A stretch of 43,095 nucleotides of DNA, taken from assembly GCA_025055595.1 (NCBI GenBank), contig JANWWU010000045.1, positions 1 to 43,095 on the forward strand, read 5' to 3'. The position numbers and the translations under genes are program-made. The stretch comes from Planctomycetota bacterium. Its GTDB lineage: Bacteria; Planctomycetota; UBA11346. This document shows, one piece after another, positions 6,701 through 43,095 of the stretch (positions are counted from its first letter, which is position 1; each line of letters begins with the position of its first letter). The notes beneath the pieces are model-generated. The model was not told where the DNA came from and did not search any database. It saw nothing but the letters and a program-made list of their open reading frames with translations.

Positions 6701-8099
6701 CGGGATGTACGACCGCGGCGACGCCTGGAGTCCGGGCTGGTTCGAGATCCCGCTCAAGCCCGGGGCCGAGGCGACGCTGGTCGTCCACGCCGACGACGAG
6801 GACCCGCCGGCCGAGCTGGTCGACGGCTGCTTCAGCGCGCGCCGCGAACGCCTCGCCGACCAGGTGGCGCGCGCCAACCTGCCCGGGCACGACGAGCTCG
6901 GCCGCGCGCTGGCGGCCGCGCTGCAGGCCTTCGTCGTCCGCCGCGGCCATGGCAAGACGGTGATCGCCGGCTATCCGTGGTTCCTCGACTGGGGGCGCGA
7001 CACCTGCATCGTCGGCCGCGGCCTGCTCGCCGCCGGCCTCGACGACGAAGTGCGCGGCATCCTCTGCGCCTTCGGCCGCTTCATCCGGCGCGGGACGATG
7101 CCGAACCTGCTGCACGGCGAGGACGCGAGCAACCGCGACACCAGCGATGCCCCGCTGTGGTACGCCCTGCTCGCCAGCGAGTGGGTGGCGCGCCGCCCGC
7201 AGCCGGGCTGGGACCTCTCGGTGGCGCCGCAGCGCTCGCTCGCCGACTGCCTGGTCGAGATCGCCGTCGGCTGGCTCGACGGCACGGACAACGGGATCCG
7301 CGTCGATCACGGCTCGGGCCTGGCCTGGAGCCCGCCGCACTTCACCTGGATGGACACCGACCACCCGGCCTGCACCCCGCGCGCCGGCTACCCGATCGAG
7401 ATCCAGGCCCTGTGGATCCGCCTGCTCGAACAGCTCGCCGCGATCGGCGCGCCGGCCCCGCGCGGGCCCTGGCGCGAGTGGGCCGCGCGCGCGCGCGACG
7501 CCTTCGCGCGGCTGTTCTGGCTCGAGCGCGAGGGCTGGTTCGCCGACTGCCTGCTCGCCCCGGCCGGCGAGACCGCGGACCACGCGGTGCCCGACCGCAG
7601 CCTACGACCCAACCAGTACTTCGCGATCGCGCTCGGCTGCGCCGACGGCGAGCGCGCGCGCCGCGCCTGCGCCGCCGGCGAGCGCTGGCTGCTGATTCCG
7701 GGAGCCCTGCGCACGCTCGCCCCCCTGCCGGTCGAGCCGCCGCTGGTCATCCGCGGCGCCGATGGCCGGCTGCTCGGCGATCCCCTGCGGCCCTATCGCG
7801 GGCGCTATCTCGGCGACGAGGACAGCAGCCGCAAGCCGGCTTACCACAACGGCACGGCCTGGCCCTGGCTGCTGCCGAGCTACTGCGAGGCGGTCGCGCT
7901 GGCCTGGAATCGCGCGCCGGCCGCGCTGCACGCCGCGCGCTCCTGGCTGGCCAGCATCTCCTCCCTGCTGACCCACGGCTGCTACGGGCAGGTCCCGGAG
8001 CTCCTCGACGGCGACGCCCCGCACCAGCCGCGCGGCTGCGACGCCCAGGCGTGGAGCGTCAGCGAGGCCCTGCGGGTGTGGCGCTGGCTGTGGCGCTGA
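3789..8099 (+). CDS. Two-activity glycogen debranching enzyme: GH13 glucanotransferase-type domain fused to GH133 amylo-1,6-glucosidase
   Basis: The product has 1436 residues. A beta-rich N-terminal part (about 1-120) is followed by a GH13 barrel with all four conserved regions: DVAINHTG at 255, GFRCDAGY with the nucleophile at D328, LLEGLGG with the acid/base at E357, and ETHDND with H415-D416. After a beta-rich central section (about 560-1030) comes a GH133-like (alpha/alpha)6 domain, with FLDWGRDTCIV at 1065-1075, LLHGEDASNRDTSD near 1110 and NGTAWPWLLPSY at 1354. By analogy with eukaryotic debranching enzyme, the first half would move short maltosaccharides off a branch and the second would hydrolyse the remaining alpha-1,6 glucose, so both steps of glycogen debranching sit on one chain. 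There is no signal peptide, so cytoplasmic glycogen is the likely substrate. No other glycogen genes are adjacent. The assignment of which domain does what is by family analogy. Confidence 0.88.
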   Translation: MSELSMDPPAGERLRRFVGDRVRVSLRLAGGRPAGWQARLRTNLGRGALHRHEIIATHAGAHTFAGASWRDVAMRPDGDGWSIELPLTEVGWYRAKPYAIDAEGRQRWPGGEDIGIAVHPDWTRCANTIYCAFPRMFGPNKAKPSTRDSLLEEQIAAFDRHGWTVIPPSGTLRGLTREIPHIVERLGCRILHLLPVTPTPTTHARMGRYGSPYAAQDLVLIDPALIEFDKRTTGVDQFRELTAAAHRAGARVFLDVAINHTGWASRLLELHPEWFRRAADGSFVSPGAWGVIWGDLVELKHEDIALWDALAEALLTWCERGVDGFRCDAGYMVPTPVWRYITARVHSEFPECVFLLEGLGGPWEATAELLTEGGMQWAYSELFQNYDGQQVSAYLDHALRHGGRIGTLVHYSETHDNDRLAKRGRAWSLLRNRLCALASDAGAFGFSAGVEWLAAEKLDVHEARGLNWGAEPNIVSELARLNRVISDHPCFYAGASIRRLSPDGSPVLALRRDAPEDCGSRESVLVLVNLDLERKQSLRFTQAQLRELGSPAIDLLGQETPAFIPQPEGDLVVTLPPGAAYCLAEHATPQGLSGEAYRTARAQAALALQAVVQAIPDEDCGPAPWQELASRFAIDPVRFLAALSRLDRKQARANLLAAIDAASGIADLPPVTVIAAHDASRRVPIPPGHWLLVCDEAPFALTHRRGSRVTRRTRAVAVQRGFVAVLPPSDQPGDAELIVDRSAAEGAAQRIQVRHLALPPLLAGPHLPDGLVLLTNGRGAMTRLHADLGRIASKYDCLLGANLHPEAPCDRWVCVKRLRAWINADGFLTPLHAGNLAELQPGPPAQWEFVANAGDGRTVTVRLLVELLPERNAVVLRWQRPSGVLRWGRPLPPEAAVSITVRLDVEDRSFHAETRRNAEAEAWFEGTVQHDERGFHCRFARDRQLRAFLDRGRFHRESEWSHCPHPIEGERGMYDRGDAWSPGWFEIPLKPGAEATLVVHADDEDPPAELVDGCFSARRERLADQVARANLPGHDELGRALAAALQAFVVRRGHGKTVIAGYPWFLDWGRDTCIVGRGLLAAGLDDEVRGILCAFGRFIRRGTMPNLLHGEDASNRDTSDAPLWYALLASEWVARRPQPGWDLSVAPQRSLADCLVEIAVGWLDGTDNGIRVDHGSGLAWSPPHFTWMDTDHPACTPRAGYPIEIQALWIRLLEQLAAIGAPAPRGPWREWAARARDAFARLFWLEREGWFADCLLAPAGETADHAVPDRSLRPNQYFAIALGCADGERARRACAAGERWLLIPGALRTLAPLPVEPPLVIRGADGRLLGDPLRPYRGRYLGDEDSSRKPAYHNGTAWPWLLPSYCEAVALAWNRAPAALHAARSWLASISSLLTHGCYGQVPELLDGDAPHQPRGCDAQAWSVSEALRVWRWLWR

Positions 8100-8751
8100 G
8101 CGGCAGCAGCGCCTCGGCGAGCCGCCAGTCGGCCGGCTCGGTGATCTTGAGGTTCAGGGGATCTCCCGGCACGACCGCGACGGGGTAGCCGGCGCGCTCG
8201 AGGACCTCGGCGTCGTCGGTGCAGTCCCAGCCCTCGGCGGCGGCGCGCGCGAAGGCTTCCAGGCCGGCAGCGCGGCGGAAGCCCTGCGGGGTCTGGGCGA
8301 GCCAGAGCTCGCGGCGCGGCACCGTCGCCTGCACCAGGCCGGCGGCGACGCGCTTGACCGTCGCTGCGCAGGGCACGGCGACGAGCGCCGCCGGATGCTC
8401 GGCGAGGGCGGCGAGGCAGTCGGCGATGCAGCGGCGCGGCACGAGGGGCCGCACCGCGTCATGGACCAGGCACGGATCGCCGGCGCTGGCGAGCAGGGCG
8501 GCATGCACCGAGGCCAGGCGGGTCGCGCCGCCCTCGACGATGCGCAGCGGCAGCGGCAGGCCCGCGCAGGCGGCGGCGATCGCCGCGCGGTGTGCGGGGT
8601 GGGCGGCGATCACCACCTCGTCGACGAGGCCGAGGAAGGCGTCGAGGCTGCGGCGCAGCACGGGGACCCCAGCCAGCGGCAGCAGCTGCTTCGGAACGGA
8701 GCCGCCGAAGCGCGTGCCGCTGCCGCCGGCGGCGAGCAGCAGGACGGCCAT
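8059..8751 (-). CDS. ispD: 2-C-methyl-D-erythritol 4-phosphate cytidylyltransferase
   Basis: IspD transfers CMP from CTP to methylerythritol 4-phosphate, the third step of the non-mevalonate isoprenoid pathway. The 230-residue product begins with the nucleotide-binding LLAAGGSGTRFGGSVPKQLLPLAG and carries VHDAVRPLVP, the conserved Asp-containing metal/substrate loop, then LAQTPQGF, DDAEVLERAG and the C-terminal NLKITEPAD. All are characteristic of IspD. The start at 8751 lies two bases after the stop of the upstream TPR gene, so the two are probably translated from one message. Its last 41 bases overlap the end of the debranching enzyme gene on the other strand. No ispF is adjacent, although ispD and ispF are often neighbours or fused. 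Confidence 0.95.
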   Translation of the reverse strand: MAVLLLAAGGSGTRFGGSVPKQLLPLAGVPVLRRSLDAFLGLVDEVVIAAHPAHRAAIAAACAGLPLPLRIVEGGATRLASVHAALLASAGDPCLVHDAVRPLVPRRCIADCLAALAEHPAALVAVPCAATVKRVAAGLVQATVPRRELWLAQTPQGFRRAAGLEAFARAAAEGWDCTDDAEVLERAGYPVAVVPGDPLNLKITEPADWRLAEALLPLSATASATPAGPR

Positions 8752-34623: not shown

Positions 34624-36953
34624 TTCCGGAGTGGCTGAGCTCGGCCATCGTCCTCATCCCCCTGGCCGCGGCACTGCTCGCCGCCCCCCTGCGCAGCGCT
34701 GGCCTCGCGCACGCCCTCGCCGCAACGGCGATGGCGGCTGCCACCGCGCTCGCCGTCTGGCTGGCCTGGCTGATCGTACCGACAGGCCTCAGCTGGCAGG
34801 GGCCGCGCCTGGTCTGGCTCGACCTCGGTTCCTGGGCGCTATCGCTCGGCACGATGGTCGACAGCCAGGCGGCGATCATGGGCGTCATCGTCTGCCTGCT
34901 CGCCACCCTGGTGCTGATCTTCAATGCCTGGTACATGCACGACGAACCGCTGGCAGCGCGCTTCCCCTGGCAGTTTTCGTTTTTCGCCTTCGCCATGCTG
35001 CTCGTCGTCTTCGCCGACAACCTCTTCCTCGCCTTCGTCGGCTGGGAGCTCGTCGGCCTCGGCAGCTACCTGCTGATCGGCTTCTGGTACATGAAGCCGG
35101 CGGTCGCCGATGATCCCTTCTACCAGCGCTTCAAGGGCGTGCGCGCGCGGGGGGTGCTCGAGCACTGCTTGAGCCCCGCCCATGCGCAGCTCAAGGCCTT
35201 CATCATGAACCGCATCGGCGATGCCGGCTTCCTGCTCGGCATCGGCGCCTTCCTCGCTGCCGGCCTGGCCGCCGGGGTGCGCGATCCGCTGCAGTGGAGC
35301 GAGCTGCAGCGCCTGGCGGCTCAAGGGATGCCCGGAAGCTTCCTCGGCCTCAGCGGGGAGGACCTGCTGCTGCTTGGCTGCCTCGGGGTGTTCTGCGGGG
35401 CCATCGGCAAGAGCGCGCAGTTCCCCCTTCATCCCTGGCTGCCGGATGCGATGCAGGGTCCGACGACGGCGTCCTCGATCATCCACGCAGCAACGATGGT
35501 CGCTGCCGGCGTCTACCTCGTCGCCCGCTGCTACCCGCTGTTCCCGCCGGAGGCCCTGCTCGTCGTCGGCATCATCGGCGGCTTCACCTGCCTGCTGGCG
35601 GCCACCATCGCCAGCGTGCAGTGGGACCTCAAGGCGACGCTGGCCTACTCGACCGTCTCGCAGCTGGGGCTGATGTTCGTCGGCCTGTCGGCAGGCAGCG
35701 AAGCCTATGGCCGCGAAGCCGGACTCGGGCATCTCTACGCGCATGCGATGAGCAAGTGCCTGCTCTTCCTCGCCGCCGGGGCAGTGATCCATGCCGCCGG
35801 CGGGGTGCAGGACATGGGGCGCCTCGGCGGCCTGGCGCGGCGCATGCCGCTGACCGCGATCGTCAGCCTGCTGGCAGTGGCAGCCCTCATCGGCACACCC
35901 TTCACGACCGGCTTCTTCTCGAAGGACGCGGTGCTCAGCGCGGCCCTGCTGCACGCCGAGCAGCGCGGCGGCTGGACCTGGCTGCCCTTCGCCCTGGCCT
36001 GCGCCGGCAGCCTGTTGACAGCCTTTTATATGGTACGCTGGTGGGTGCGCATCTTCCTCGGCCCCGAACGACAGCCGGAGATCACGGAGCATGCCCACGA
36101 CCCCCCTGGCTGGGCGGCAGCTCCCCTGGTGGTGCTGGCGCTCTTCACGCTGTGGGCGCCGTGGACCGTGCGCGAGCACGGGGAGGCCGTGGCCACCGGC
36201 CACAGCCATGCGCAAATCGCGGCTTTCAGCCTGATCGGCGGCCTCATCGTCTTCGCGGTCCTCACCTATGCCCCGGTGGTACGGCTCGTCTCCTGCGCTG
36301 GCAAGCCGCGCTGGTGGCAACGGATCTTCAGCGAGCACGCCGAGCAGTGCGGCTTCGCCCACGGCCAGCCCTCGTGCACCGTGCCCTGCGGGGTCAAGAC
36401 CGCCGCCGCCTTCGCCCCCGGCCTGCTGCTGATTCCGTGGCTGCTCGGCTATGTCTTCGACAGCTGGTTCGCACCGCATGGACCGGATCCCGCAGCGGCG
36501 GCGCAGTACCACGCGATGGCGATCGCGATCGGCTTGATGTTCACCGGCGCCGCGACCGGACTGATCATCTATTGGTGGCTGCCGCGGCTCGGGGTCGACA
36601 CGACGGGCTTCCTCGCCCGTCACATCTATCCGCTCTACAACGCCTGCGCCAATCTGTGGTGGATCGATCGCGCCTGGCACGCACTGTTCGCCCGCGGACT
36701 CGGGGAGGGCCTGGGGCGCCTCAGCGCCCGCCTCGACCTCGGCGACCGCACCCGTCTCGCCGCCCTCGAGGGCGCTGCCCCGTGGCGCCCGCGCGATCTC
36801 GCCTCGCTCGATGGCGCGATCGATGGTCTCGGACGCATCTGCGCCCGTCTCGGGGCCGGCCTGGCGGCGTGGCATGATGGGCGCATCGGGGCCTATGCGG
36901 CGCTAGCCGTCGGCATCGCGAGCCTGCTCGTCATCATGGGGGTGCTCTGGTGA
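34620..36953 (+). CDS. nuoL: NADH-quinone oxidoreductase subunit L
   Basis: NuoL is the distal proton-pumping subunit, with a long lateral helix that spans the membrane arm. The 777-residue product is at the upper end of the family. Conserved stretches include FVGWELVGLGSYLLIGFWY (key Glu), LKAFIMNRIGDAGFLLGI, GAIGKSAQFPLHPWLPDAMQGPTTASSIIHAATMVAAGVYLVAR, WDLKATLAYSTVSQLGLM and GTPFTTGFFSKDAVL. The region after residue 480 contains a hydrophilic part with cysteines (GFAHGQPSCTVPCGVKT) of unknown meaning. Overlap GTGA with nuoM. Confidence 0.96.
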   Translation: MIPEWLSSAIVLIPLAAALLAAPLRSAGLAHALAATAMAAATALAVWLAWLIVPTGLSWQGPRLVWLDLGSWALSLGTMVDSQAAIMGVIVCLLATLVLIFNAWYMHDEPLAARFPWQFSFFAFAMLLVVFADNLFLAFVGWELVGLGSYLLIGFWYMKPAVADDPFYQRFKGVRARGVLEHCLSPAHAQLKAFIMNRIGDAGFLLGIGAFLAAGLAAGVRDPLQWSELQRLAAQGMPGSFLGLSGEDLLLLGCLGVFCGAIGKSAQFPLHPWLPDAMQGPTTASSIIHAATMVAAGVYLVARCYPLFPPEALLVVGIIGGFTCLLAATIASVQWDLKATLAYSTVSQLGLMFVGLSAGSEAYGREAGLGHLYAHAMSKCLLFLAAGAVIHAAGGVQDMGRLGGLARRMPLTAIVSLLAVAALIGTPFTTGFFSKDAVLSAALLHAEQRGGWTWLPFALACAGSLLTAFYMVRWWVRIFLGPERQPEITEHAHDPPGWAAAPLVVLALFTLWAPWTVREHGEAVATGHSHAQIAAFSLIGGLIVFAVLTYAPVVRLVSCAGKPRWWQRIFSEHAEQCGFAHGQPSCTVPCGVKTAAAFAPGLLLIPWLLGYVFDSWFAPHGPDPAAAAQYHAMAIAIGLMFTGAATGLIIYWWLPRLGVDTTGFLARHIYPLYNACANLWWIDRAWHALFARGLGEGLGRLSARLDLGDRTRLAALEGAAPWRPRDLASLDGAIDGLGRICARLGAGLAAWHDGRIGAYAALAVGIASLLVIMGVLW

Positions 36954-38443
36954 TCGGTGCCCTGACCTGGTCGGTGCTGGCTCCCCTCCTGGCCAGCGTG
37001 CTGTGCCTGCTCGCGGGTCGGGCCGCGCGTTGGGTAGCGCTCGGCGCAATGTTGGTGCCTTTGGCTGTCGGCAGCGCGGCGCTCGTCTCGTTCGTCCGGC
37101 AGCCGGGAGCCGACTTCCGCCTGCTCGAATCGTACCCCTGGGCCTTGGGCGCGGCGTGGACCGTTGGCGTCGATGGCATCGGCGCCGCCCTGCTCGCCCT
37201 CACCGGCCTGGTGATGAGCATCGCGACGATCAGCGCGTGGAACGAAGCGCGTCGTCCGGCCGCCTACCATGCCCTCGTCTGCTTGCTCACCGCCGCGGTC
37301 GTCACGGTCTTCACCACCCTCGATCTGCTAGTGTTCTATATCGCATGGGAAGCGCTGCTGCTGCCGATGCTCGCGCTGATCGGCCTGTGGGGCGGAGAAC
37401 AGCGGCGCTATGCAGCGATCAAGTTCTTTCTGTTCACGCTGGCGGGCAGCATCTTGATGCTGGCGTTGGTCATCGCCCTGTGGGTGGTGCAGCCCGAGGC
37501 GACGCGTTCCTTCGACATCCGCCAGCTCGCCGGCCAATGGCGCCTGTGGGAGAGCACCAGCGTGCTCGGCGTGTCGCTGGCGCGGTTCGGGTTCGTCGCG
37601 GTGCTGCTTGCAGCCCTGGTCAAGGTGCCAGCGGTGCCGCTGCATACCTGGCTGCCGCATGCTCATGTGCAAGCCCCGACAGCGATCTCCGTGATCCTCG
37701 CCGGCATCCTGTTGAAACTCGGCGTCTACGCCCTCTACCGGCTGGCCTGGCCGCTGTTCCCCCTGCAGGCCCTGGTTTTCGACCACTGGATCGCCGTCCT
37801 CGGCGTCATCGGCATCCTGTGGGCTGCGTGGGTCGCGCTCGGGCAGCAGGACCTCAAGCGGCTCGTCGCCTACGCCTCCGTCAGCCACATGGGGTTCTGT
37901 CTGCTCGGTCTGGCCGGACTGACGAGCAGCGGGGTCACGGGCGGCATGGTGCAAGCGATCACCCACGGCCTCGGCTCCCCGCTCCTGTTCCTGCTCGTCG
38001 GCGTCGTCTACGACCGCGCCCATCATCGGCGCATCGATGGTTTCGGCGGCCTTGCGACACCGATGCCACGCTTTGCCTGGGCCCTGCTGCTCGCGAGTCT
38101 CTCCGGCGCCGGGCTTCCTGGGCTGGCGGGCTTCCCGGGGGAGGCCCTCGTCCTCTTCGGCAGCTACACGGCGGGGGGCTGGTGGTCCTGGCTCGGTGCC
38201 CTGGCCACGCTCTCCGTCGTGCTCTCCGCTGCCTACTTGTTGTGGATGCTCAAGCGCGTCATCTATGGACCGCTGCGTCACCCCGAACAGGCGGCGTTCC
38301 CCGACCTCGATGCGCGCGAGCAGGCCGCCATCCTGCCTCTCCTGCTCTTGCTCCTGCTCTGCGGCGTCTGGCCGACGCCACTGGTCGCCGCCCTGCGTCC
38401 AGCCTGCGAAGCGCTGATCACGCATGTCACGGGGGCTCCATGA
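36950..38443 (+). CDS. nuoM: NADH-quinone oxidoreductase subunit M
   Basis: NuoM is a proton-pumping antiporter-type subunit. The start is the GTG at 36950, overlapping the nuoL stop. The 497-residue product has LDLLVFYIAWEALLLPMLALIGLWG with the essential membrane Glu, LVKVPAVPLHTWLPHAHVQAPTAISVILAGILLKLGVYALYR with the key Lys and His, DLKRLVAYASVSHMGFCLLGL, and a late segment GLPGLAGFPGEALVLFGSY equivalent to the usual LPGtagFvgE. Overlap of four bases with nuoN. Confidence 0.95.
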   Translation: MIGALTWSVLAPLLASVLCLLAGRAARWVALGAMLVPLAVGSAALVSFVRQPGADFRLLESYPWALGAAWTVGVDGIGAALLALTGLVMSIATISAWNEARRPAAYHALVCLLTAAVVTVFTTLDLLVFYIAWEALLLPMLALIGLWGGEQRRYAAIKFFLFTLAGSILMLALVIALWVVQPEATRSFDIRQLAGQWRLWESTSVLGVSLARFGFVAVLLAALVKVPAVPLHTWLPHAHVQAPTAISVILAGILLKLGVYALYRLAWPLFPLQALVFDHWIAVLGVIGILWAAWVALGQQDLKRLVAYASVSHMGFCLLGLAGLTSSGVTGGMVQAITHGLGSPLLFLLVGVVYDRAHHRRIDGFGGLATPMPRFAWALLLASLSGAGLPGLAGFPGEALVLFGSYTAGGWWSWLGALATLSVVLSAAYLLWMLKRVIYGPLRHPEQAAFPDLDAREQAAILPLLLLLLLCGVWPTPLVAALRPACEALITHVTGAP

Positions 38444-39876
38444 GCGAGACCCTGATGATCCTGGCCCCGGAGCTGATTCTCACCGCTACCCTGCTGGCCG
38501 TCCTGCTGAGCGACGCCGCGCGCTGGCGCTCCTTCGCCTACCTGCTCGCTCTCTCCGGCACGCTGTGCGCCCTGCTCGCCTCGGCCCTGGCTCCCCGCGG
38601 CACGGTTGGCGATCAGCTGGCGATCGACGCCTGGGCCGCGCTCGCCCGACCGGCCATCCTCCTCTCCGCCGTCCTGCTGCTGATGGCGGCCCGCTCCCTG
38701 CATGACGACGATGACGGCCCGGCGTGGGCCGCGCTGCTGCTCGCCCTGGCCCTCGGCGCGCTGGTCACTGCCGCCAGCGCCCACCTGCTGCCGCTGTGGC
38801 TTGGCCTGGAGCTGATGTCGCTGTCCGGCTACGCGCTGGCCGGCTGGCGCGCAGGAAGCCGCAGGAGCGCCGAAGCCGGCATGAAGTACGTGCTCTTCGG
38901 CGGCGCCGCTTCGGCGCTCAGCCTCTACGGGATGAGCCATCTCTATGGGCTGGCTGGCCGTCTCGATTTCGCCGGCATCGGCGCCATGCTCGCCGTCGAT
39001 CAACCGCTGCCAGTGACCGCCGCCCTGCTGATCGCGAGCGTCGGCCTCGCATACAAGCTGACACTCGTTCCCTTCCACTACTACGCTCCCGATGTCTATC
39101 AGGGAGCTCCGCCGCTGGCGGTCGCCAGCGTCGGCACCCTGCCGAAGATCGCTGCGATCGCGGTGCTGGTGCGCGCCCTCAGCAGCGCCGTGCCGGAGAG
39201 CCTTGTTTCCCCCGCCAGCGTCAGCGGGCTGCTTGCCCTGCTGGCGACCGCCAGCCTGCTCGTCGCCGCGCTCACTGCGGTGGTCGCGCGCGATGCCCAG
39301 CGCATCATCGCCTATAGCGCGATCGCCCATGCCGGATCGATGGTGTTGGCGCTCGCTGCCCGTCCTCACAGCAGCGCCACTGCCGCCGCAGCCTTCTACC
39401 TCGCGGCCTATGTGCCGGCCACCATCGGCGCCCTGCTGGCGCTCGCCCTGCTGGCACCAACCGCCGGCCGCACTGCCCTCGTCGAGCTGGCTGGCAGCGG
39501 CCAGCGACGGCCCTGGACAGGAGTGGCCCTCGTCGTCTGCCTCGCCAGCCTCGCCGGCCTCCCGCCGCTCGCCGGCTTCCTCGCCAAGTGGGGCGTCCTG
39601 CGCGCCGCGCTCGAAGTCGGCCTCGGGGCTCCCGAACGCAGCGTCCTGCTGTGGGCTGCCGGCGCCCTGCTGCTGAGCACCGCGATCTCCGCCTGGGCCT
39701 ACCTGCTGATCATCCGCGCCGTCTTCTTCCAGCCGGCTCCCGCTCAGCAGACCACCGCCACACCTCCCCTTCCCCCCGGGGTCGCCGCCGTCCTCGCGCT
39801 GTGCGTCGCCGCCACCCTCGCCCTCGGGCTCTGGCTCTCCGGATTCGCGGTTCTGCTCCACTCTCTGCATCCATAA
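38440..39876 (+). CDS. nuoN: NADH-quinone oxidoreductase subunit N
   Basis: NuoN is the third antiporter-type subunit. The 478-residue product has LPLWLGLELMSLSGYALAGW (key Glu), GMKYVLFGGAASALSLYGMSHLYGL, VGLAYKLTLVPFHYYAPDVYQGAPPLAVASVGTLPKIAAI, DAQRIIAYSAIAHAGSMVLAL and GLPPLAGFLAKWGVLRAAL. It is complete and ends the nuo operon with TAA. Only eight bases later comes the ATG upstream of the polysaccharide exporter region, where composition changes sharply. Confidence 0.96.
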   Translation: MSETLMILAPELILTATLLAVLLSDAARWRSFAYLLALSGTLCALLASALAPRGTVGDQLAIDAWAALARPAILLSAVLLLMAARSLHDDDDGPAWAALLLALALGALVTAASAHLLPLWLGLELMSLSGYALAGWRAGSRRSAEAGMKYVLFGGAASALSLYGMSHLYGLAGRLDFAGIGAMLAVDQPLPVTAALLIASVGLAYKLTLVPFHYYAPDVYQGAPPLAVASVGTLPKIAAIAVLVRALSSAVPESLVSPASVSGLLALLATASLLVAALTAVVARDAQRIIAYSAIAHAGSMVLALAARPHSSATAAAAFYLAAYVPATIGALLALALLAPTAGRTALVELAGSGQRRPWTGVALVVCLASLAGLPPLAGFLAKWGVLRAALEVGLGAPERSVLLWAAGALLLSTAISAWAYLLIIRAVFFQPAPAQQTTATPPLPPGVAAVLALCVAATLALGLWLSGFAVLLHSLHP

Positions 39877-39884
39877 TCGCCATC

Positions 39885-40685
39885 ATGCTGCAGCAGGCTG
39901 CTGGATCTTCGTACGCAAAACTACGCAGATATATTGACGTCCTCGATAGTCTTGCTCAGCAAAGATTTCAGAGTCAAATATCGCCGCACCGTCCTCGGTT
40001 ATCTGTGGTCTCTCGGCACGCCACTGCTGATGACCGGGATTTTCTACCTGGTCTTTCATCGATTAATCACCAATGCTTTCTCGTCGCTTGATTATATCGC
40101 CCACTTGCTCAGCGGCGTCTTCGCCTGGCAGTGGTTCAGCAACTCGATTACCGGTTCTGTGTGGAGCTACCTGCACAATGCTGCGTTAGTCAAAAAAATC
40201 GTGTTCCCTCGCTGGCTCGTGCCTTGCAGCCTGTGCATCATCGATGGCCTTCACTTTCTGCTCGCTGTGCCAGTCATCATCGCGGTGCTGATATGGCGCG
40301 GTCACAGCATCGATTTCTTGCTCTGCCTGTATGCTTTTCCGATCGTCTTCCTCCTGCAGCTGGTGTTCGCCTGCTCGCTGGCGATCATCTGCGCCAGCTG
40401 CAACGCGTTCTTTCGTGACATCGAACGCCTTGTCAACCTTGGCATGATGTTGATGTTCTACTTGACGCCCGTCATGTATCCCCCGAGCTGATCCCGCCGG
40501 AATGGCAGCAGTGGTTGTACCTCAATCCATTCGCCTTATATATGCAATGTTGGCGGGACATTCTCTTGGCGAGCGCATTCCCGACGCTGCCATTGGCAGC
40601 TGCAGGCATCGCCACTGGTCTTGCAGTGATCATCAGCATCTGCGTCTACCGCTGGTTATCGCCGAGATTCGCCGAAGTGCTGTGA
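39885..40685 (+). pseudogene. wzm: ABC-2 type polysaccharide/O-antigen exporter permease, frameshifted
   Basis: The protein matches Wzm/KpsM-type permeases that export lipid-linked polysaccharide across the inner membrane. The central frame (TTG at 39934 to 40491) reads VLLSKDFRVKYRRTVLGYLWSLGTPLLM, GVFAWQWFSNSITGSVWSYLHNAALVKKIVFPRWLVP and FRDIERLVNLGMMLMFYLTPVMYPP, six membrane helices in the usual order. It then hits TGA. One base later in frame the protein continues ELIPPEWQQWLYLNPFALYMQCWRDILL to RFAEVL and stops at 40685. Adding one C to the C5 run at 40480-40484 restores it. At the front, the ATG at 39885 is one base out of frame with the body, so a second indel or a TTG start is implied. 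Restored, it has about 265 residues, a normal size. It is either a damaged gene or a sequencing error. Confidence 0.8.
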
Positions 40686-40688
40686 CAT

Positions 40689-41421
40689 ATGGCGCCTATC
40701 ATAGAACTGCATCAAGTTACGAAACACTACTATCTGTATCATCATCTAACGGGGGGATTGCGAGAGTTCCTTCTACGCCTGCCTCGACATTTGCTCGGCT
40801 TGCAGCGGCGCTTTATCGCTCTGCAGAACATCGAGCTGACAATTCACAAAGGGGAATCCGTCGGTGTCATCGGTCGCAATGGCTCAGGCAAAAGCACCCT
40901 TCTCGGGCTCGTCGCCGGAGTCTTGAAACCGAGCCAAGGACAGGTGATTGTGCGAGCTCCCGTCACGCCGATGCTGGAGCTCGGATGCGGCTTTCATCCT
41001 GATTTGAGCGGGAAGGAGAATGCCGTCCTGAACGCGGTGCTGCTCGGTCAGTCGTATGCTCGGGCTCGCCAAAAAGTCGACGCGATCATCGACTTCGCCG
41101 AACTAGGAGAATATGCCGAAGAGCCGGTCAGAACCTATTCTGCCGGCATGCTGGCAAGACTCGGGTTCAGCATCATCGCTCATACCGAGCCGGAGATCCT
41201 CTTGATCGACGAGGTTCTCGCTGTCGGCGACCAGCGGCTTCCGCGAGAAGTGCTATCAGCGCATCGAGGATTTCCGTCGACAGGGAACGACGATCCTCTT
41301 CGTCACCCACTTCGCAGAAGAACTGCGCAAAATCTGCGCACGGGCCATCTGGATCGATCAGCACAAGATCGTGATGGATGGTCCACTGGAGCATGTGCTG
41401 CAAGCATATACTCATTCGTGA
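40689..41421 (+). pseudogene. wzt: ABC exporter ATPase for polysaccharide (Wzt/KpsT type), frameshifted
   Basis: The ATPase partner of the preceding permease begins three bases after it. Walker A is GRNGSGKSTLL, followed by LELGCGFHPDLSGKENAVLNAVLLG (typical of O-antigen exporters), the ABC signature YSAGMLARLGFSI and Walker B EILLIDEVLAVGD. Just after, at 41235-41238 (CGGC), one extra base shifts the frame. In the next frame the expected end appears: FREKCYQRIEDFRRQGTTILFVTHFAEELRKICARAIWIDQHKIVMDGPLEHVLQAYTHS, with the H-loop histidine in THF and a stop at 41421. Removing one base gives about 244 residues. It lacks the C-terminal carbohydrate-binding domain of some Wzt proteins, so it resembles exporters for polymers without capped ends. 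As written, the gene would lose its H-loop. Confidence 0.82.
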
Positions 41422-41433
41422 AGGCTATCGACT

Positions 41434-43095
41434 GTGTTCACTCTCCAAACCATCATCATGCCGTCACTCGACGATGTGCCGTATGAACTGTATGTTCGGC
41501 AGTGGCCACCGTGCGGATGGCGCCTTCGAAAAACCACCGATGACCCCCTGGCGTACACGTGCGGAACGACCGACAGCAAGTTGAGCTTCGACACCTTCTT
41601 CGGCGCCTTGTCGCTGCGCGGCTGGCGTTCAGCGTAGTCCGGCTTGCCGATCGCCTTGGTGATCGACTATGCCGGCGCACTGCATCTGCAAGTGTGGCAT
41701 CGCTCTCAGCGTCAGGCCGCTGAGTTGATATGCGAATACAAGCAGTATGCCACAAGGCGTAGCTCCATCTTCATCCAGGTGCCGGAGGAACTACAGAAAG
41801 GCATCGTATATCCCGTCGTCGCGAGTGCTGAAGGCGGTGACCTCGTCTTATTTTCAATGCGCTATGTAACTGTTACGCCGCCATCCTTCTCTCCTCAAAT
41901 CGGCATCATCATGCCGACCTATCGGCGCGAGCCATATGTTGTGGCCAACATCGAAAAGTTTCTCGCCTGGCGCCAAGAAAATCCGCAACCAGACATCACG
42001 CTCTTTGTCATCGATAATGGCCGCACGCTCCAGCAATCTGCGACAAATGGCAACGTCCGTATCATTCCCAATCGCAATGTCGGCGGTGCTGGCGGCTTCG
42101 CCCGAGGTCTGCTCGAAGCTGAAGCCGCGGGCTGTACGCATGTGATCTTCTGCGATGATGATGTCATCATCGAACCGGAGGCTTTCGCAAGCACAAACGC
42201 TTTTTTTCGATTACAGATCAACGCAGCATCATCGGTGGCGGCATGCTGAGAATGGACGCCAAACATATCTTGCATGAATTAGGAGCCTTGCGGAAGGGGC
42301 TCTCATGCTATCCGCAGAAATACCAATGGAATCTCTGTGATTTTGAAAGGGTTGCGGAATATGACGATCTCAGCATCGCCACATCGCAAGATAGACTCTT
42401 TTATTTCGGTTGGTGGTATTTTGCTGCCCCGATGCAGGTATTTCGAACGCGCAAATGGCCATTGCCGTTCTTTTTAGGTATGATGACCAGGAATATTCAG
42501 CCAGATGTTACGACTTGCACTTTGTCGCGCTTCTTGGAGTCGCTGTATGGCATGAAGATTTCGAAGAAAAAGATGCGCCCATCACGGATTACTACATTGC
42601 ACGCAATGGGTTGATCACTTCTTGGCTATACAATCAGCAGTGCTTGATTGCCCTGGCCTGTGTTTATCGGATGTGCGTCGCATTGCTGACTTATCGATAT
42701 GACCGAGCGCAATTCATTTTATGGGGCATCCGCGACGCGCTGCGTGGACCCTCCTGGCTTGAACGGCTCGATGAAGAACAATATCATCAGCAGCTCTTGC
42801 GCACGCAGTGTCAACGGATGCAGCCCATCGAAGAACCAACGAAACTGCCGATAGCTGTCAATCCTCCCAAGAGCCTGCTGCGGAAGATCCTGATCATATT
42901 GACCGTCAACGGTCACCTCTTGCCGGCCTGTTTCATCAGAGCGCTCTGGAGACAAGACGATCCCGATCGTCGTGTCTACCGGCATCTCCATGACATCCAT
43001 CTTGGCGCCATTTTCTTGCGCCCAGAAGTCTGCTACTATGAGCCGTCAACGAAACAAGGCATCCTGTGCGTGGTATCGCCCCAGCGATTCTGGCA
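41434..43095 (+). pseudogene. GlfT2-like galactofuranosyltransferase, interrupted and cut by window edge
   Basis: A GTG start at 41434 lies 12 bases after the ATPase stop, with GAAGG before it. The N-terminal beta-sandwich shows KLSFDTFFGALSLRGWRS, a GlfT2-type signature. The GT-A domain shows IGIIMPTYRREPYVVANIEKFL, NRNVGGAGGFARGLLEAEAAG, FCDDDVIIEPEAF, FYFGWWYFAAP, then YDDQEYS and VWHEDFEEKDAPITDYYIARNGLI. These match polymerising galactofuranosyltransferases of family 2. The reading is broken three times: TAG at 41635-41637 (same frame continues beyond), a one-base shift near 42201-42215 and another near 42472-42478. Adding one T to the T7 and T5 runs restores continuous protein. From 42479 the frame is open to the window edge. 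It probably builds the polymer exported by the two preceding genes. Sugar identity is inferred from the family. Confidence 0.75.

Follow-up and report, generated by a model that had tools for sequence, protein, structure and literature searches.

A polysaccharide export locus of foreign composition, broken in two versions within one Planctomycetota bin, with a pattern that suggests gene decay

When several neighbouring genes at the end of a contig are all broken, the question is whether the sequence or the genes are at fault. The window analysed here, 43,095 nucleotides long, is the entire contig C23 of one metagenome bin (G000; 107 contigs, 2.26 Mb, 90% estimated completeness). Directly downstream of nuoN it appears to enter a four-gene polysaccharide locus of foreign composition, with Wzm-like, Wzt-like, GlfT2-like and GlfT1-like genes, the last of which lies on a second contig, C55. 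A sequence-only reading had reported the permease, the ATPase and the galactofuranosyltransferase as broken, with all preceding genes intact, and had left a choice between low-coverage errors at a contig end and slippage-driven inactivation of an acquired surface locus.

Setting of the locus and lesions in its genes

The GC content, about 71% as far as the end of nuoN (stop codon at 39874-39876), is about 54% in the remainder of the contig, with a fall from 0.72 to 0.48 inside about 200 bases spanning this stop. The left boundary of the locus is a host gene, given that the order of the nuo genes, like their reading frames, agrees with that in same-genus genomes. Beyond the GlfT1-like gene on C55 lie genes of 71% GC, including those for a DUF58 protein and PEP carboxylase among others, which places host-like DNA on both flanks of the locus. 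Comparison of the two boundaries found neither a target-site duplication nor a long shared sequence, and synteny with same-genus genomes, where gene order is not conserved, gave no support for joining C23 to C55.

The bin, at 2.26 Mb (90% complete), is small next to same-genus genomes of 4.0-5.7 Mb (72-87% complete), which reflects either a strong difference in genome size or the loss of accessory contigs in binning. Elsewhere in the bin, an apparent CRISPR-type repeat, GCTTCAATGGGGCCGCGAGTT, occurs twice in the final 120 bases of contig C70 (locus L121; final 200 bases viewed).

Table 1. Features of the locus and its left neighbours; positions are those of the window
Feature	Position	Strand	Evidence or remark
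Intact host genes nuoM and nuoN, flanking the locus on the left	36950..39876	+	NCBIfam TIGR01770 match; conservation in same-genus genomes
Wzm-like ABC-2 permease, broken, start uncertain (TTG 39934)	39934..40686	+	PF01061; NF050109 (galactan export permease) below cut-off; frame switch; homologue
Wzt-like ABC ATPase, broken by a frameshift near 41229-41238	40689..41421	+	PF00005; NF050108 below cut-off; frame switch; homologues
GlfT2-like galactofuranosyltransferase, broken, runs off contig	41434..43095	+	phmmer matches to solved GlfT2 and to bacterial galactofuranosyltransferases; intact plasmid homologues
Stretch with second version at C55:1-1364 (locus L003)	41730..43095	+	Base-by-base comparison
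Mosaic segment of the GlfT2-like gene (vs C55:547-960)	42275..42690	+	Versions ~50-75% identical; flanks 92-100%

The permease and the ATPase lie side by side, with PF01061 and PF00005 above the gathering score, as expected of a Wzm/Wzt-type exporter. The permease loses its frame at the C run 40480-40484 and meets a stop at 40489, the rest of the gene continuing in another frame to 40686. A Viterbi track of codon usage, for which intact host genes were the training set and the lesion positions were withheld, switches frame at 40480/40481 in the permease and at 41229/41230 in the ATPase. The two permease fragments, in different frames, match a single continuous intact homologue in the locus L077 of a relative (7499-8077, then 8075-8272), and the ATPase fragments likewise match one continuous intact ATPase in the relatives' loci L077 (8281-8805 and 8809-8982), L075, L078 and L076. 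In the relatives, the intact permease and ATPase homologues are adjacent. With both subunits frameshifted, the pair is a remnant of this exporter family and not a working member of it.

The start of the permease is less clear. Homology begins upstream of any ATG in frame and also slightly upstream of the TTG at 39934, the sole start codon in frame, so that a start at this TTG leaves the N-terminus slightly short; a weak start codon and a lesion are both possible.

The GlfT2-like gene carries an in-frame TAG at 41635-41637 and frameshifts at the T runs 42201-42207 and 42471-42475. This gene is AT-richer and receives no coding call in the Viterbi track; its four pieces can be aligned, in consecutive order, with intact plasmid-borne GlfT2-like proteins of Leisingera, Paracoccus and Rhizobium. 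The motifs of the GT-2 fold (N-GGAGGF-RG, DDD, WW and RGDD) are present by alignment, and phmmer comparison with solved GlfT2 gave E=9e-13 to 4fix and E=3e-16 to 9dtp for the piece on C55, the window piece giving E=0.001. Against 294 genomes of the phylum the protein found only weak generic GT-2 matches, and PF19320 (GlfT2_domain3) had zero matches in this genome or in 245 others of the phylum, with Corynebacterium glutamicum positive as the control.

Codon statistics and/or intact homologues thus bear out that all three genes are broken, and establish five of the six lesions originally listed, the exception being the frame problem proposed at the permease start, where the TTG is in frame. Were these five lesions placed at random in the window, the chance of all falling in its last 3.2 kb would be ~2e-6. 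As for the preceding genes, the main ones among 28 scanned open reading frames have full-length or near-full-length domain matches and the nuo frames are consistent, in a check that was not exhaustive.

A second version of the transferase gene

Searching the bin with the DNA of the region found contig C55, which is 86% identical across 41730-43095. The two contigs match exactly over 114 bases at the left end and 99 bases at the right end of the shared stretch, with no internal exact run longer than 96. C55 begins inside the GlfT2-like gene, which ends at C55:1506 and is followed at C55:1523-2470 by an intact 315-aa GT-2 protein whose best named model is GlfT1, below cut-off.

The version on C55 is in frame at both T-run lesions of the window, and the T7 tract of the window is T8 there. 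It has private lesions of its own: the codon at C55:245-247 is TAG, and the frame shifts at about C55:836-842. No visible inactivating lesion is common to both versions, and an ancestral inactivation is therefore unseen. Both versions have also lost residues at family-conserved positions, at different sites (RGDD to RYDD in the window, FARG to FARC in C55). The fact that the second version is broken at different places makes the damage look like real gene decay as opposed to sequencing error.

The rate and kind of change between the versions were compared with those of neutral drift. In the alignable flanks of the mosaic segment there are 18 nonsynonymous and 8 synonymous changes, a pN/pS of 0.69 that is indistinguishable from neutral (p=0.36) and rejects a constrained value of 0.2 (p=0.002); being based on 26 changes, it weakly excludes or is compatible with values of 0.3-0.5. 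The divergence between versions is ~2.8%. Neutral drift would be expected to give 1.7 nonsense changes in the window (3.2 kb) and 0.7 in C55 (1.36 kb), and 1 and 1 were observed, while indels number about 1 per 11-19 substitutions. The lesion numbers fit neutral decay across ~2.8% divergence, and several independent disabling changes together with lost purifying selection are what a decaying pseudogene cluster presents. The gene for UDP-galactopyranose mutase (glf), beside or near which the intact transferase homologues lie, was not found in the bin, although at ~90% completeness its absence may be due to chance.

The mosaic segment is either a chimera or the trace of an old exchange of alleles, in one lineage or the other, with a distant homologue. 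It is no explanation for the lesions, which fall on either side of it and within. There is a slim chance that a recombining population keeps the broken versions as partner alleles, and that exchange between them could rebuild working alleles; if so, the "dead" locus would be a reservoir of diversity, beyond simple decay.

Error, duplication, switching or decay

The assembly itself bears on the possibility of error. When contig ends were compared (20 contigs, then 20 more), six end pairs overlapped by exactly 141 bases, and C23 ends in an overlap of exactly 99 with C55 at their fork. From these exact overlaps the assembly is of the short-read de Bruijn type, with word sizes that include 99 and 141, both of which are in the default list of MEGAHIT. 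Errors in short reads are overwhelmingly substitutions, yet four of the five confirmed lesions in the window are indels, and clusters of single-base indel errors in such an assembly are very unlikely. The contig end at 43095 is the point where both versions turn identical and the assembly graph forks. A second polysaccharide locus of low GC (55%) lies at the end of contig C27 (G000:C27:42527-50332; locus L125:4528-12333), after a methionyl-tRNA synthetase gene, and all its scanned genes are open: two encode Capsule_synth proteins, one an ABC permease, one an ATPase and one a protein of 392 aa that matches no Pfam family. Low GC and a contig end alone therefore do not break genes in this bin. 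Taken by itself, a scan for frame jumps in nine control contigs carries little weight, since a stop also follows a true frameshift before long, and homology was relied on instead.

If the true genes were intact, errors of sequencing or consensus at a contig end with thin coverage would account for the position of the lesions and for the short homopolymers in which most of the indels sit. An end joined at word size 99 in an assembly that reached 141 also hints at low depth, given that a stretch joined only at the smaller word size usually means just that, and error therefore keeps some probability. Nonetheless, this explanation is unlikely, and the claim of low-coverage errors finds poor support, in view of the de Bruijn signature, the different lesions of the second version, the intact locus on C27 and the clean reading of the remainder of C55. 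Slightly less probable again is a duplication, with two diverged copies decaying in one genome, after nuoN and beside the DUF58 gene. In an assembly graph a repeat resembles a strain fork, and the nuo genes and the core genes of C55 are not neighbours in same-genus genomes. Against this, the sequence occurs in just two contigs of the whole bin, C23 and C55, which favours strains over copies, a second upstream half with permease and ATPase was not found in the bin, and C55 is unbroken for ~16 kb past the fork.

The description of the inactivation as slippage-driven holds only in part. Most indels are in short runs, where neutral bacterial indels usually sit, and one tract differs as T7 and T8 between the versions, but slippage leaves aside the nonsense codon, the indel outside any long run and the substitutions at conserved positions. 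The differing tract and the surface polymer encoded by the locus would also suit phase variation, in which slippage at short homopolymer tracts would turn the locus on and off. A phase-variable locus would have long tracts and variants differing solely in their on and off states; here the tracts of the two versions are of 5-8 bases, those of 5-7 being short for such a role, several genes are broken together, nonsense codons are present, and the many substitutions between versions look unconstrained, with conserved residues lost. Reversible switching is accordingly highly improbable, and the lesion pattern points to general decay.

It is likely that the locus is a horizontally acquired galactan-type export operon that is in decay in two or more strains occurring together, which agrees with the suggested inactivation of an acquired surface locus. 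The intact GlfT1-like gene on C55 speaks against this reading. That the two versions belong to strains and are not duplicates, what the operon originally did and in which order events took place are parts of this reading that we infer. In an intact state, the two transferases would extend, in the cytoplasm, a chain that contains galactofuranose and is borne by a lipid carrier, and the permease and ATPase would carry the chain across the inner membrane. Given that the two versions are broken at different places, selection was probably relaxed no later than their split, after which each would have gathered stops, indels and amino-acid changes separately.

Decay of this kind is biologically ordinary, being a known kind of event. 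The locus would illustrate how an acquired operon for a surface polymer decays in step with strain divergence, and it offers a read-free test for frame lesions at contig ends, namely exact word-length overlaps with contigs of the bin together with a differently broken second version. It also calls for caution, as automatic annotation of such bins will list the fragments as genes.

Comparison with known systems

The galactan genes of mycobacteria (Wzm/RfbD, Wzt/RfbE, GlfT1 and GlfT2) comprise the same set of functions in one cluster as is found here. The best named models for the locus include those of the permease and the ATPase of galactan export and that of GlfT1, and the GlfT2-like gene matches solved GlfT2. 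In contrast to the mycobacterial system, no model score comes near its curated cut-off, PF19320 is unmatched in this genome, three of the four genes are broken and glf is missing from the bin as assembled. For this reason we would call the locus galactan-type export by analogy, and not a member of the mycobacterial system.

With regard to decay, the cryptic O-antigen cluster of Yersinia pestis is alike in having several inactivated genes within one retained surface-polysaccharide cluster, with differences between strains, as discussed in PMC5589760. The genes and the organism are unrelated, and the present case consists of two broken versions in a metagenome bin, without cultured strains.

The plasmid clusters of roseobacters and Paracoccus, which combine an ABC exporter, a GlfT2-like transferase and glf, differ in being intact, in their plasmid location, in gene order and in their extra genes. 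Nonetheless, their transferase is 36-38% identical to the one described here and lies near glf, and in the plasmid cluster of Leisingera caerulea the ABC permease and ATPase are close to the transferase.
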